64,000 nt of DNA from Methanosalsum zhilinae DSM 4017 (GTDB lineage Archaea; Halobacteriota; Methanosarcinia; Methanosarcinales; Methanosarcinaceae), in the NCBI RefSeq assembly GCF_000217995.1, contig NC_015676.1, positions 1,218,103 to 1,282,102 on the forward strand. Reading direction: 5' to 3'. The position numbers and the translations under genes were made by a program. Under the pieces are notes generated by a model, which was given only the letters and a program-made list of their open reading frames with translations, was not told the origin of the DNA and did no database searches. This document shows, piece by piece, positions 39,022-46,406 of the stretch (positions are counted from its first letter, which is position 1; the number at the start of each line of letters is the position of its first letter).

Positions 39022-40050
39022 ATGAAAGTCACAGATTTTATTGATATGAATTACAGGCATTTCAATGCTGCCCAATTAAAAGATGCAGCCGCATCATATA
39101 AAGAACATTTGGACAATAATGGTCAGATGCTTTTAACCATGGCTGGTGCAATGAGTACTGCTGAGTTGGGCATATCACTTTCACAAATGATAAGGCAGAA
39201 AAAAGTCCATGCAATTTGCTGCACCGGTGCAAATTTGGAAGAAGATCTGTTCCATCTTGTTGCAGCAAGCAAATACATACGTATCCCGGATCACCGGAAT
39301 CTTAGAAAGGAAGATGACTATAAATTGATGAAGCTTCACCTGAACAGAGTCACAGATTCATGTATACCAGAAAATGAAGCCATGAGAAGGATTGAATCCG
39401 CATTATTGGACCATTGGCAGCAGGTAGAACAGATGGGAATGCGAGAATTCCCTCATGAATCATTGTACAGCCTCATAAGAAGTGGGATACTTGAAGAGTA
39501 TTATGAAAAAAATCCTTCTGAAAGCTGGCTGGTAGCTGCATGCGAGAACAACATTCCTATTTTTGTTCCAGGGTGGGAAGATAGCACACTTGGAAATATG
39601 TTTGCGAGCAGGTGCATAAAGGAGCATTTTGACAGTCCACTTATTGTCAGGGGTGGGATTGAATATATGATCGATCTTGTAGAATGGTATAAAAAAACAA
39701 GTCAGGCCCATAAAGTAGGCTTTTTCCAGATAGGAGGAGGCATTGCAGGAGATTTTCCAATATGTGCAGTGCCCCTGATCAATCAAGATCTGTCATTGCT
39801 AGAAGGTGAAGAGGCAAATATAAAAACTGATATGTATGATCATCCGGATCTGAAAAGATTCCATGCACCATTGTGGAGCTATTTCTGTCAAATAAGTGAC
39901 AGCACAACCTCTTATGGAAGCTACAGTGGTGCGCCACCATCTGAAAAAATATCATGGGGCAAACTGGCGGTTGATACACCTGCATTCATGATCGAAAGTG
40001 ATGCGACAATTGTAGCCCCGTTAATATTCGCTTATGTCATGGAGTGGTAA
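39022..40050 (+). CDS. dys: Deoxyhypusine synthase
   Basis: The 342-residue enzyme transfers the aminobutyl group of spermidine (or a related amine) to a lysine of aIF5A. The NAD-binding parts include MLLTMAGAMSTAELG and CCTGANLEEDLFHLV. QIGGGIAGDFPICAVPL follows. The catalytic lysine is K314 in SWGKLA, preceded by SYSGAPPSEKI. The active lysine is thus present. A deoxyhypusine synthase-like paralogue with a different amine substrate is the alternative. A GGAGAGAAT ribosome site precedes the ATG. The gene stands alone. Confidence 0.92.
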   Translation: MKVTDFIDMNYRHFNAAQLKDAAASYKEHLDNNGQMLLTMAGAMSTAELGISLSQMIRQKKVHAICCTGANLEEDLFHLVAASKYIRIPDHRNLRKEDDYKLMKLHLNRVTDSCIPENEAMRRIESALLDHWQQVEQMGMREFPHESLYSLIRSGILEEYYEKNPSESWLVAACENNIPIFVPGWEDSTLGNMFASRCIKEHFDSPLIVRGGIEYMIDLVEWYKKTSQAHKVGFFQIGGGIAGDFPICAVPLINQDLSLLEGEEANIKTDMYDHPDLKRFHAPLWSYFCQISDSTTSYGSYSGAPPSEKISWGKLAVDTPAFMIESDATIVAPLIFAYVMEW

Positions 40051-41410: not shown

Positions 41411-41524
41411 TCAAGCCAGCAGACCTGAAATATAGAGAGCTGCAATTACAAGAATACCTATGATGTAACCATATATTGCAATCGAGTCGGTTGAATCTGT
41501 TTCGAAATCTGCTTTTTCCTGCAT
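41411..41524 (-). CDS. 37-residue single-pass membrane peptide
   Basis: An ATG frame of 38 codons encodes an acidic N-terminus (MQEKADFETDSTDS) and one membrane helix (IYGYIIGILVIAALYISGLL), then stops. An AGGTG ribosome site lies 9 bp upstream of the start. A strong TATA box bracketed by an inverted repeat lies about 105 bp upstream. The amphipathic layout and the promoter argue that it is a real small gene. Function is unknown; it could be a subunit or regulator of a membrane complex. It is isolated in a 975-bp region that otherwise holds no gene. Confidence 0.6.
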   Translation of the reverse strand: MQEKADFETDSTDSIAIYGYIIGILVIAALYISGLLA

Positions 41525-41606
41525 TTTCTATACACCTATCACCATTTCATTTCTGATAGCCTATCAACGAGGCCTAGATTTAACACAATTATGGACTATA
41601 ATTATA

Positions 41607-41646
41607 ATGATAAATCATTTGATATATAAATATATTGATTTATCAT
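41607..41646 (-). promoter_or_regulatory. Promoter of the 37-residue gene, bracketed by inverted repeat
   Basis: ATGATAAATCA (41607-41617) and TGATTTATCAT (41636-41646) are perfect 11-bp inverted repeats. The 18 bp between them contain ATTTATATATC on the minus strand, a consensus TATA box. A dimeric regulator bound here would block or assist TBP. The gene start is about 83 bp downstream of the near arm. Confidence 0.6.
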
Positions 41647-41982: not shown

Positions 41983-42726
41983 TCATCCAATGATGTACGT
42001 GACCTGAACTGACATTGAAACCCTGCTTTCTCCGGGTTCAATTGGTGTCGGTTCTGGTGCTGCGTCCCTTGCTACAGCTTCTTCATAAAAGATCCTTGGT
42101 TGAGTACCTTCGGATATAGATGATGTCTTCACACCAATTATCTCAACACCCAGATTTTCAGCAAGAATTTCAGCCTTTGATGATGCATCCGCCACAGCTT
42201 CGCTGATCAGATCTTCACGCAGTTCTTTCTGCTTTTCATCAGATACAGTAAAAGAAATACCTCCAATCTGATTTGCTCCTGCAGCTGCAGACCTGTCAAT
42301 CATCTCTCCCAGACTGTCAAGCATTGTAGTGGTTATCTGTACATTATTGGAAGCTGCATAGCCTTCAATTGTCGGGGTTCTTCCCTCATAGTTGTATACA
42401 GGATACACAGAAACACGTGAGGTCTGGATTTCCCGATCCTGCAAACCAATGTCCCTAAGTTCATCAATTACTGCATTCATTATAGCTGCATTCTCTTGAG
42501 TTGCCTCATCTGCAGTAGGGGCCCTGACTTCTACCCCAATACTCAATGTTGCAGTGTCAGGTACAACCATCATTTCTGCATTTCCACTCATCTGCATAGT
42601 ATTTTCTGAACTTCTATCAGATGCACCAATTGATCCTGCATATAAAGTTGCTGCCATTAGCACCAGAACGATTGAAAGTGCAATAATGACATAATATAGT
42701 TTATCTTTATTATTTTCCTGAGACAA
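41983..42726 (-). CDS. SIMPL (DUF541) domain protein, membrane-anchored
   Basis: This 247-residue protein has one N-terminal membrane anchor (YYVIIALSIVLVLMAATLYA) and an exported SIMPL domain: MQMSGNAEMMVVPDTATLSIGV, TQENAAIMNAVIDELRDIGL, GISFTVSDEKQKELREDLISEAVADA, and a C-terminal VSMSVQVTYIIG. Family members occur at the cell surface in bacteria and archaea, and their role is poorly defined. The start is TTG with an AAGGAGAG ribosome site. No partner gene is adjacent. Confidence 0.9.
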   Translation of the reverse strand: MSQENNKDKLYYVIIALSIVLVLMAATLYAGSIGASDRSSENTMQMSGNAEMMVVPDTATLSIGVEVRAPTADEATQENAAIMNAVIDELRDIGLQDREIQTSRVSVYPVYNYEGRTPTIEGYAASNNVQITTTMLDSLGEMIDRSAAAGANQIGGISFTVSDEKQKELREDLISEAVADASSKAEILAENLGVEIIGVKTSSISEGTQPRIFYEEAVARDAAPEPTPIEPGESRVSMSVQVTYIIG

Positions 42727-42871: not shown

Positions 42872-44737
42872 TCAGCAGTTAATCGGCTCATTCTTAAAAG
42901 TAATAGAATAGCAAGTTCCATTTGAGGTGTCAATTTCTAGATTACCATCAAGCTGGCGAGTTAACATTGTAACAACCTTTAAGCCAGTAGATTTTGGATT
43001 GTTAATCTCATGGTCTTCTGATATTCCAATCCCATTATCCGATACTTTTAAAATATACTCACCATTGAGATATTTGAAACTAACATAAATTAGTCCATTA
43101 TCTTTGTCAGGAAATGCGTGCTTAATCGAATTTGTAAGTAGTTCAGTTAATATCAATCCAATTGGTACTGTTCGTTCAATATCAAGATAGACGGTATCCA
43201 GGTCGTTTCTCAAATCAATATTTCTGCTATCACTGAAGTAAGTGCGCAAGATATAATTTTCTAAATTCCTTATATAATCTGAGATTTCAATTCTTGACAA
43301 ATCCTGTACACCATATATTTTCTCGTGAGCTAGCGACATTGATTTTATTCTACTTTGACTATCCAGAAACGCAGATTTTACGATTTCGTCTTCAAAGTTT
43401 CGAGCCTGCATGTTCAGTAAGCTCGCAATCACCTGGAGATTATTTTTAATCCGGTGATGAATTTCCTGTAATAAAATTTCTTTTCTACGAAGATCTTCAA
43501 GTTCTACTCTATCTGTAATTTCATCAATTAGTATTTGAGCACCGGATAATTTGTTTTGTGAAAATATAGGTGCTATGTGAACTCTTACAATTATCTCTTT
43601 GTTCCATTTTGTTCTATAAACAATCTCTGCAGGACCTATTTTTTTACCCGTACTCAATACTTTAGCAAGATAATTTGAAAAACCTGAATCTACCAGTGGT
43701 TTAAATTTTAGAAGATTTATCTTTTTAGTTTCTTTTTCTCCAGGAGAACCTAATATATCTAAAACACGTGGATTTAAATATTTTATATTTCCATTGATAT
43801 CACAGGTAAGAATTCCTACCATTGATGATTCAACTAGATGTTGATAATTAACTCGCGTTTCACTCAGTTTATATTCAAGATCAAGACGAGTAATTGATAA
43901 GCCTACAAGTGAAGAATATATTTCTAAAAATATTTTATTTTCTAGTAAATCTCCCTCATTCATTATTATGGTAAAGTCACCAATCATCTGGTTATCCCTT
44001 TCAATTTTAACTACATATACCTCCCCAATATTGAACGTTTTTTCCAGTATCTTTACAATTTTATCTGAAATAACACCCCGGGTCAGTTTATGGAGATTAG
44101 AAAACCTTGTGATTTTTTGGCCTGCTATTTTCTGTGCACGATTAATATCGTGAGGCCATTTTTTATTTTTGGGATTAAATGAGAGAATTGAAATTGCTTT
44201 ATCAATGTGATTATTATTCCCAGAAATTGTAACCGTCCTAAAGAAATTCCCATCCTCTTCGTATATGTTTAAAGCAACATACTTTGCCCCGGAGATTGTT
44301 AATGCAGTATCAGATATTTTTTTATAATCGTTCTCTAAAAAAGAGGTTTGCAGCAGATTCTCAGCCATCTTTAGGGTTTCTTTTTCAACTGTAATATCCG
44401 AAAAAAGGGTTACAAAATAATGTTTTTCTGGAGAATATGCAGTAATTTTATACCATTTCCCTAAAATCTCAGAAAAATTCTCCAACTCAAGTTTTTCTCC
44501 AGTTAGTGCGACTTTACCATAAACTCCAATCCAGTCAAAACTTCCATTTCTAATTCCAGGGAAAATTTCAGTTGCATTTTTTCCAATGATTTCAGAAGCA
44601 TTTAGACCAGTCAAAATTTCAAATGCACGGTTGGTTTCCAGAAATTCATAGTCACACGGATTTCCTGAATTATCAAGAATTATTTTATGATATGCGTAAC
44701 CTTCAGATGTATTTTCTAATAAAAGTTTATTAAAATT
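42872..44737 (-). CDS. PAS sensor histidine kinase (HisKA_2), 5' end apparently frameshifted
   Basis: The C-terminus holds a HisKA_2 dimerisation domain (LLQEIHHRIKNNLQVIASLL, phospho-His in EIHHR) and an ATPase domain with VPIGLILTELLTNSIKHAF and VSDNGIGIS. Upstream lie a PAS domain, a GAF-like region and an N-terminal PAS. The family-like PAS sequence continues beyond any usable start (codons from 44737: KLLLENTSEGYAYHK, NRAFEILTGL), where a stop closes the frame. The frame one base away, from GTG 44775, encodes VENYEWIKERLY, which looks like the missing N-terminus. A one-base loss near 44738-44739 would explain this. It may be a pseudogene, a sequencing error or programmed. No response regulator is adjacent. 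Confidence 0.8.
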   Translation of the reverse strand, partial: NFNKLLLENTSEGYAYHKIILDNSGNPCDYEFLETNRAFEILTGLNASEIIGKNATEIFPGIRNGSFDWIGVYGKVALTGEKLELENFSEILGKWYKITAYSPEKHYFVTLFSDITVEKETLKMAENLLQTSFLENDYKKISDTALTISGAKYVALNIYEEDGNFFRTVTISGNNNHIDKAISILSFNPKNKKWPHDINRAQKIAGQKITRFSNLHKLTRGVISDKIVKILEKTFNIGEVYVVKIERDNQMIGDFTIIMNEGDLLENKIFLEIYSSLVGLSITRLDLEYKLSETRVNYQHLVESSMVGILTCDINGNIKYLNPRVLDILGSPGEKETKKINLLKFKPLVDSGFSNYLAKVLSTGKKIGPAEIVYRTKWNKEIIVRVHIAPIFSQNKLSGAQILIDEITDRVELEDLRRKEILLQEIHHRIKNNLQVIASLLNMQARNFEDEIVKSAFLDSQSRIKSMSLAHEKIYGVQDLSRIEISDYIRNLENYILRTYFSDSRNIDLRNDLDTVYLDIERTVPIGLILTELLTNSIKHAFPDKDNGLIYVSFKYLNGEYILKVSDNGIGISEDHEINNPKSTGLKVVTMLTRQLDGNLEIDTSNGTCYSITFKNEPINC

Positions 44738-44873
44738 CTATATAGCCTTTCCTTTATCCATTCATAATTCTCCACATGAATAATGTGAGAATAATCAGAA
44801 ATACTTGTTTTTAAAAGTATATTTTGATATGTATTACTATCCCTGACAATTATTTAAATCTTAAGCATTTGGA

Positions 44874-46247
44874 TCAAAAAATGATAGCATAACTAGTCCC
44901 GTTCGAATTATCTATATTCACGGTTCCCTGCAGTTGCTGTACTAGCATATTGATTAATTTAAGTCCCAGAGATTCAGATCTTTCAATATCAAAATCATCA
45001 GGTATTCCAATACCATCATCAGTTACTTTCAATAGATATTTATCATTTTCAAGTTTTTTAAAGATGATATTAATTGCCCCTTCATTCCCAATAGGAAAAG
45101 CATGCTTGATAGAATTTGTTATAATTTCAGTAATAATTAGTGCTAAGGGAACCAATATATCCATATTCAGATGTGCTGAATCTGAGTTAACATTCAGTTT
45201 AATGTTTTCATTTACATTATACGCCTTGAAAATGGATGTCCCCAGCTTTTCAATATAGTCCGATATTTCAATATTATCCAGATCTCCAGAATCATATAAT
45301 ATTTTATGGGCAATTAGCATCGATTTTACTCGATTTTGACTATCACTAAACGCCGCTTTAACCGATTCATCATCGAATTTTCTGGCCTGCATACTCAATA
45401 AACTTTCAATTACCTGAAGGTTATTTTTTACTCTATGATGAACCTCTTTTAGAAGGATCTCCTTCTTTTCCATTTCCTCTAATAGTTTGTACTCTGTGAT
45501 GTCAATCATAAAGCCCTGTATTTTAGTAGGTTCCCTGGATTTTAAATCAACATCAAAAACATCTTTTATCCATGCAAAAGTTCCATCCTTTTTGAAAAAT
45601 CTATACTCTATAGAACGAGGTTCTCTGCATTCCACGCATTCTGTGAAATATTGTATAACTCTATCATGGTCTGCTGGATGGATACGGTCTTCCCAGAATT
45701 TGAGATCAGTCCATTCATCAGGCAAATAACCTAAAATATCCGTAACCTGTGGGGCAACATAGTTCCAATGATCTTCAAAAATATCATATTCCCACAGAAT
45801 CGCATGTGCTGATTCTGCCAGATTTTTGTATTTCTGCTGACTTGATTTCAGATTCTCTTCATACATTTTGCGATCAGTAATATCTTCATGATATATCACA
45901 ATCAGATCATGATCTGCGAGTATGACTGCATGCATAGTAAACCAACGTTTTTCATCGGGAGAATGACAGGGATACTCCATTTCAAATTCATAACTCTGTC
46001 CTTTTATTAGATCCATAATCCCTTCGAAAGCTTCTTCAGCGACTTTATCGCCTTCAACCATTGCTTTCTTTGTCACGTCCAGATAATTTGAGCCTATGCC
46101 ACTATTTTTCAAAAAACAATTATCATTCTCTTCAGCAAATTTGATCCATTGTTTATTGTAGGAAACAATGGTTCCATCCATATCTAATAATACAATATTT
46201 ATTCTTAAAGTATCTATAACACTTTGATTAAATTTCATCGAACACAT
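44874..46247 (-). CDS. PAS sensor histidine kinase (HisKA_2 type)
   Basis: This 457-residue cytoplasmic kinase without membrane segments starts MCSMKFNQSVIDTLRINIVL behind GGAGGAG. An upstream in-frame start at 46271 was rejected. Two PAS domains (VLLDMDGTIVSYNKQWIKFA; ILWEYDIFEDHWNYVAPQV with its PAC motif) precede HisKA_2 (LLKEVHHRVKNNLQVIESLL) and HATPase_c (PLALIITEIITNSIKHAF; VTDDGIGIPDDF). It is a tandem paralogue of the kinase gene directly downstream, arising by duplication. The signal and output partner are unknown. In methanogens such soluble kinases often sense redox or ligands through PAS. Confidence 0.93.
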   Translation of the reverse strand: MCSMKFNQSVIDTLRINIVLLDMDGTIVSYNKQWIKFAEENDNCFLKNSGIGSNYLDVTKKAMVEGDKVAEEAFEGIMDLIKGQSYEFEMEYPCHSPDEKRWFTMHAVILADHDLIVIYHEDITDRKMYEENLKSSQQKYKNLAESAHAILWEYDIFEDHWNYVAPQVTDILGYLPDEWTDLKFWEDRIHPADHDRVIQYFTECVECREPRSIEYRFFKKDGTFAWIKDVFDVDLKSREPTKIQGFMIDITEYKLLEEMEKKEILLKEVHHRVKNNLQVIESLLSMQARKFDDESVKAAFSDSQNRVKSMLIAHKILYDSGDLDNIEISDYIEKLGTSIFKAYNVNENIKLNVNSDSAHLNMDILVPLALIITEIITNSIKHAFPIGNEGAINIIFKKLENDKYLLKVTDDGIGIPDDFDIERSESLGLKLINMLVQQLQGTVNIDNSNGTSYAIIF

Positions 46248-46406
46248 GCACTCCTCCCCCCGTCCCGCCACAAGGAGAGTTCTTGATACTATTACTATGT
46301 TTTTTCAATAGTTTTTAATGTTTCTAAGATGTGGTAATCAAAAGTTTTATATGAAATCAATTCAAAAATTAAATAATTAAAGTGAGGGATTGATATATTT
46401 TTAGGA

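Follow-up and report, generated by a model that had tools for sequence, protein, structure and literature searches.

Paralogous genes for a predicted 37-residue single-helix membrane peptide in Methanosalsum and the 40-bp TATA-centred promoter element private to them

We analysed a stretch of 64,000 nucleotides (hereafter the window) of Methanosalsum zhilinae DSM 4017, a halophilic and alkaliphilic methanogenic archaeon; the window covers positions 1218103-1282102 of contig C1; the genome consists of one contig of 2,138,444 bases. On the minus strand, the following features were assigned to a short open reading frame (ORF) and its promoter.

41411..41524, minus strand: 37-codon ORF, predicted single-helix membrane peptide (from the ORF list, homologues, purifying selection, AlphaFold2 and hydropathy)
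Within the peptide: N-terminal tail, residues 1-13; hydrophobic helix, residues ~14-36; the protein stops where the helix stops
41533..41537, minus strand: ribosome-binding site AGGTG, 8 nt 5' of the ATG, read from the sequence
41596..41606, minus strand: conserved TATAATTATAG stretch, putative initiator and transcription start region
41607..41646, minus strand: 40-bp TATA-centred element, kept at all five homologous genes and absent elsewhere in the genome
41607..41617, minus strand: right arm TGATTTATCAT, between the TATA box and the putative transcription start
41623..41630, minus strand: TATA box TTTATATA, at the exact repeat centre; TTANATA in all five copies
41636..41646, minus strand: left arm ATGATAAATCA, gene-distal, adjoining the BRE region

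The ORF is translated as MQEKADFETDSTDSIAIYGYIIGILVIAALYISGLLA. Besides AGGTG, a longer ribosome-site match (GGTGAT) was found by script 13 nt 5' of the ATG, and in the homologues the site reads GGTG or GGAG, 7-9 nt 5' of the ATG. The element has the form ATGATAAATCA-N18-TGATTTATCAT, a perfect 11-bp inverted repeat centred on TTTATATA, and the 18-bp spacer between its arms reads ATATATTTATATATCAAA on the minus strand. Considering the TATA-to-start distance of archaeal promoters (PMC4158304), transcription probably begins ~25-30 bp past the TATA box, which would leave a 5' leader of roughly 75 nt. The layout is that of an archaeal TATA promoter with conserved flanking arms, the TATA box lying at the right distance from the putative start.

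Homologues of the peptide were confined to the genus Methanosalsum in a protein search of 112 family genomes, where five homologous genes occurred in three genomes; the expectation of the sequence-only reading that the peptide would turn up in other Methanosarcinaceae was not borne out. A paralogue (MKEQLKFEPDSTDSLAIYLYIFGILLIVILYLSGVLG) lies in the M. zhilinae genome at C1:384373, ~875 kb from the window copy, while M. natronophilum AME2 contains two homologues and the 72%-complete Methanosalsum MAG CSSed162cmB_328 contains one. In all three genomes (M. zhilinae, M. natronophilum and the MAG), msrA follows the paralogue. The named genome collection yielded the same three loci. Profile searches of 238 class and 393 phylum genomes yielded no further full-length relatives; the matches of these class- and phylum-wide profiles outside the genus were partial, lay inside larger ORFs or were noise-level short frames, and were dropped. 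No relatives were found in the viral contigs searched.

We found that the substitutions among these copies followed a coding pattern. When the window copy was compared with the nearest M. natronophilum homologue, the differences at codon positions 1, 2 and 3 numbered 14, 2 and 22, and pS was 0.85 against a pN of 0.20. Pairwise dN/dS ranged from 0.13 to 0.26 (diverged copies with unsaturated dS), and the msrA-linked copies of M. zhilinae and the MAG were separated by four synonymous differences and no amino-acid change. Fifteen of the 37 residues (M1, F7, D10, T12, D13, S14, A16, I17, Y18, Y20, G23, I24, Y31, G34 and L36) were invariant across the four distinct sequences. Both the codon-position pattern and dN/dS are those of purifying selection, as sought in a short ORF for a small single-pass membrane protein. 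The earlier proposal had staked itself on a conserved coding pattern in relatives, and such a pattern was present. The ORF list has dozens of equally short spurious frames in the vicinity, as would suit a chance frame in an AT-rich spacer; however, the protein has been kept at five loci despite saturated synonymous sites, and the codon-position pattern refutes this explanation, whose probability we regard as negligible. Judged from these comparisons, the 37-mer ORF is a real protein gene under selection.

The hydrophobic stretch of the peptide starts at about residue 14, is strong over residues 14-33 and runs to the C-terminal end, with no charges after residue 14. Hydropathy was 1.9-2.7 over 19 residues in all four distinct sequences, a length sufficient to span a membrane, and AlphaFold2 (single sequence) predicted a helix over residues 11-36, with a pLDDT of ~95 over residues 21-30. 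Depending on the copy, the N-terminal tail had a net charge (K/R minus D/E) of between -4 and +1, and the motif FxxDxTDSxAIYxYxxGI, which joins tail and helix, was conserved together with Y31 and G34. We infer that the 37-mer inserts into the membrane through its one predicted helix. The sequence-only reading had described a 37-residue single-helix peptide with its own ribosome site and promoter, and this description is upheld by the ORF, the AGGTG site, the purifying selection and the predicted helix. No above-noise match to the peptide was found in Pfam, NCBIfam, PHROGs or the PDB. Membership in CrgA (PF06781) was rejected, with the paralogue alone matching at 12.3 bits against a Pfam cut-off of 24.8.

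A very short, hydrophobic, stand-alone and genus-restricted peptide with two paralogues and a regulated promoter might be a tightly repressed, growth-arresting membrane toxin with a role like that of TisB and other bacterial type I toxins; an unrelated membrane sORF is known to slow the growth of M. mazei when overexpressed (PMC11456600). However, no conserved antisense promoter or RNA structure was found, the leader and trailer were unconserved between copies, and Rfam identified no RNA family in the leader. The only conserved blocks were the ORF, the Shine-Dalgarno site and the 40-bp element, a comparison that sees a conserved antisense RNA and may miss a non-conserved one. Moreover, the strongly conserved polar DxTDS and the tyrosines suggest specific contacts over pore formation, and dN/dS is low. 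A toxin is thus an improbable identity for the peptide.

When spacers of 8-30 bp were allowed, the 11-bp repeat of the element was the only perfect one in the 64-kb window. Shuffles of the whole window (n=12) contained 0-2 such repeats each, none with a TATA box in the spacer, and in shuffles of the AT-rich intergenic region (n=400) any such repeat appeared in 1.25% and one with a TATA box in none. Chance is excluded mainly because the element recurs at five homologous genes and the ORF is under purifying selection.

In an anchored, ungapped alignment of the five gene copies, the 40-bp block was 72-90% identical in all pairs. The flanks, compared over all pairs other than the near-identical msrA copies of M. 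zhilinae and the MAG, reached 35-44% just upstream and 18-42% at 16-60 bp downstream. The 15 bp 3' of the element were 53-80% identical across the diverged copies, so conservation extends into the putative start region. Among the four diverged copies, 27 of 40 columns were invariant in the element, compared with 6 of 55 in the upstream flank and 3 of 45 in the downstream one. The TATA box was near consensus in four of the five copies, and both arms were kept at fixed spacing in all of them, the left arm being the better conserved. That the TATA box is centred in a perfect 11-bp repeat, as the sequence-only reading had stated, is exactly true of the window copy and of no other: inter-arm symmetry was 11/11 in this copy and 10, 10, 9 and 8 of 11 in the remaining four, with the decay mostly at the inner end of the right arm. 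Across the aligned copies, the conserved property is the TATA-centred 40-bp block rather than perfect symmetry.

The loss of symmetry in the other copies makes it less than certain that a single dimer reads the two arms. Taken alone, each arm comes close to a palindrome (TGAT-WW-ATCA); in the decayed arms the change falls in the first half (TGAT), and ATCA is retained in 10 of 10 arms. These near-palindromes and the decay pattern would fit either a single long dimer site or a pair of short ones whose centres lie 28 bp apart. The two short sites seem to fit the decay somewhat better than one long site, which among related copies is suggestive only.

Since the genes are paralogous, shared promoter sequence is to be expected by descent, and the TATA box and start region are core elements regardless. 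The block might thus be a strong core promoter inherited by duplication, its arms mere core context without a dedicated regulator. However, synonymous sites and flanks are saturated while the arms have been kept, on one side 11 bp beyond TATA/BRE, and no other promoter of the genome shares them, which argues that they are not general core context. We consider such simple inheritance hardly probable. An element so nearly symmetric in the window copy, TATA box included, could also fire both ways, and the paralogue does have a divergent gene, for a threonyl-tRNA editing domain (PF08915), that starts ~240 bp away. In contrast, the window has no divergent gene, the upstream gene (41983-42726) lying on the same strand, and only the gene side shows a conserved start-region extension (TTATAATT). 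A bidirectional promoter is thus very improbable.

The sequence-only reading had expected a regulon to emerge from a genome scan for the repeat; what emerged was the two paralogous genes. With ≤3 mismatches, in a scan that scored the arms only, the 40-bp repeat was found in its own genome at the two paralogous promoters alone, and the control gave no matches. A pattern of arms plus TATA box, which matches all five genes at zero mismatches by construction because it was derived from them, found no additional sites in the own genome; outside the genus, its match count was about that of the reversed-pattern control. Half-element scans gave control-level counts apart from the five genes, and a wide regulon was rejected since the full element occurs at two genes only and half elements at control level. 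Other TGATWWATCA words examined in the genome lay nearly all within long open frames. A half-site before an M. natronophilum response-regulator gene (L144) was also discarded, because no left arm accompanies it and the corresponding promoter in M. zhilinae is without the half-site; the M. zhilinae counterpart of that gene adjoins msrA. Given no other own-genome sites and control-level counts elsewhere, the element is private to the gene pair.

The position of the arms bears on the direction of control. With one arm placed after the TATA box but before the start, and the other directly against the BRE, a protein bound there should get in the way of TBP/TFB and polymerase, which favours repression. 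Archaeal sites downstream of BRE/TATA usually repress, and those upstream of the BRE often activate (PMC4158304); the layout has an arm on each side, and activation therefore keeps a real share. A regulator on the left arm or on both could recruit TBP/TFB to genes that are off by default because of a weak core promoter, as would suit the placement of the left arm, taken alone, upstream of BRE/TATA, where archaeal activators sit (PMC4158304), and its better conservation. On the other hand, four of the five TATA boxes are near consensus, the right arm occupies the stretch from TATA box to start, where archaeal regulators usually repress (PMC4158304), and the arms are retained together at fixed spacing in all copies. 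Activation is thus unlikely, if worth keeping in view, and repression is the likelier action of the element.

By analogy, the closest regulatory precedent is YtrASa, a GntR-family repressor of two membrane-protein loci in Sulfolobus acidocaldarius (PMC6746942). In both cases, one palindromic core-promoter element serves two membrane-protein loci, identity is confined to the element and the regulon is very restricted. Unlike the Methanosalsum arms, which straddle the TATA box, the site of YtrASa, with a core of 14 bp in a 32-bp repeat, covers the transcription start; YtrASa also controls its own operon, whereas no regulator gene in Methanosalsum carries the element, and the sequences are unrelated. 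TrmB of the Thermococcales (PMC4158304) likewise has a palindromic BRE/TATA operator, where it blocks polymerase recruitment as is proposed for Methanosalsum, but its sites (TACT-N3-AGTA or TATCAC-N5-GTGATA) differ from ATGATAAATCA-N18-TGATTTATCAT and belong to other genes.

The neighbourhoods of the copies were also investigated. The paralogue and msrA are probably separate transcripts, judging from the T-runs between them, and beyond msrA, M. zhilinae and M. natronophilum both have a KamA-type aminomutase and a glutamine synthetase. On one side of the window copy lies a gene for a CAP-domain protein and on the other a gene for a SIMPL/DUF541 protein; the best NCBIfam model for the latter, 'oxidative stress defense protein', matches below cut-off. 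Together, msrA and the SIMPL neighbour may hint, weakly, at oxidative stress. The M. natronophilum counterpart of the window copy has unrelated surroundings, which suggests that the gene pair travels with its promoter rather than with an operon. Among the genes examined, no regulator was linked in a conserved way, and no conserved neighbour of the window copy pointing to a partner was found.

Several other features of these loci were recorded. In the three msrA-linked copies (L006 and L005, and L007 of M. natronophilum), an ORF of 16 codons that has a GGTG site of its own (MKQKVHGKIVCIWGGM / MKNKITVNYVYCVGCM) terminates with a TAA immediately 5' of the 37-mer ATG; it is equally long in the three copies, identical at 6 of 16 residues and absent at the window copy, and is possibly a coupled leader peptide. 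The paralogue region (L064:4616-12373) encodes two type I glutamine synthetases and the KamA-type aminomutase, which the arginine, lysine and glutamate 2,3-aminomutase models all match below cut-off. One glutamine synthetase adjoins the aminomutase in both species, and the region could serve the synthesis of beta-glutamine or a beta-amino-acid osmolyte. The stand-alone archaeal threonyl-tRNA editing domain divergent from the paralogue lies at L064:7022-7465. In the window, two consecutive PAS histidine kinases, assigned by reading, lie upstream of the SIMPL gene (42872-46271), and a response regulator with a further domain lies beside msrA in M. zhilinae; no link of these kinases or this response regulator to the 40-bp element was found. 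A deoxyhypusine synthase-family protein (PF01916; window 39022-40050), below all NCBIfam subfamily cut-offs, is possibly a divergent homospermidine-synthase-like enzyme.

Small proteins of M. mazei offer a comparison. sORF_05 has a membrane helix and lies within a methylamine-permease operon (PMC11456600). In Methanosarcina genomes we observed 49-aa single-helix ORFs beside a putative trimethylamine permease (L132:5803-5952, L133:11241-11390 and L134:11311-11460), which from this place are probably relatives of sORF_05. Like the 37-mer, they are short single-helix membrane proteins of Methanosarcinaceae with two genomic copies, unannotated until recently; unlike it, they have 49 aa and lie in the methylamine-permease operon. 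Membership was rejected because the 37-mer did not align with the 49-aa ORFs and its genes lie elsewhere. At both Methanosalsum mttB loci, neither such a small ORF nor the permease was seen. MtrI (68 aa, with an N-terminal zinc ribbon and four cysteines), MtrR (49 aa) and sP36 of M. mazei act on membrane complexes without a membrane helix (PMC12774963, PMC13370731, PMC10714827). They share with the 37-mer a stand-alone, small and lineage-restricted nature, and their modulation of membrane complexes is for the 37-mer a proposal only; in contrast to them, the 37-mer is one hydrophobic helix and cysteine-free. With 37 aa, one helix and no cysteine, it was rejected as an MtrI, and it had no detectable relationship to MtrI, MtrR, sP36 or the methylamine-permease-linked small protein of Methanosarcina.

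We propose, at a probability of about one half, that the genes encode a genus-specific pair of micro-membrane-peptides, each an accessory or modulator of a membrane complex, and that a dedicated dimeric regulator masks their BRE/TATA. The 37-aa peptide would insert through its one helix, preceded by a short polar tail at the N terminus, and its conserved helix face and tail would most likely bind a larger membrane protein or complex, in the manner of small accessory subunits. The promoter would hold a dimeric-regulator site with arms on both sides of BRE/TATA, where a bound dimer, or two dimers (conceivable because each arm is near-palindromic), would block TBP, TFB and polymerase; release of the regulator would permit a short monocistronic mRNA. 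Because the same element stands before the msrA-side paralogue, both versions would respond to one signal. A bolder and doubtful extension is a dedicated two-gene regulon of soda-lake methanogens, in which a sensor-regulator would read redox, salt or sodium/pH stress through the TATA-straddling double palindrome and bring about the production of two alternative one-helix subunits that re-tune an energy-conserving complex (e.g., Mtr, HdrDE, Fpo or a sodium antiporter).

To our knowledge, few archaeal membrane microproteins have been found along with their control element. In Methanosalsum, a gene, its paralogue and a clear cis-element private to the two can be tested together, with the 40-bp DNA usable as bait for the regulator and the peptide as bait for the membrane partner. 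If this partner is a methanogenesis or ion-pumping complex, the peptide would be a membrane-embedded counterpart to MtrI and MtrR in soda-lake organisms.
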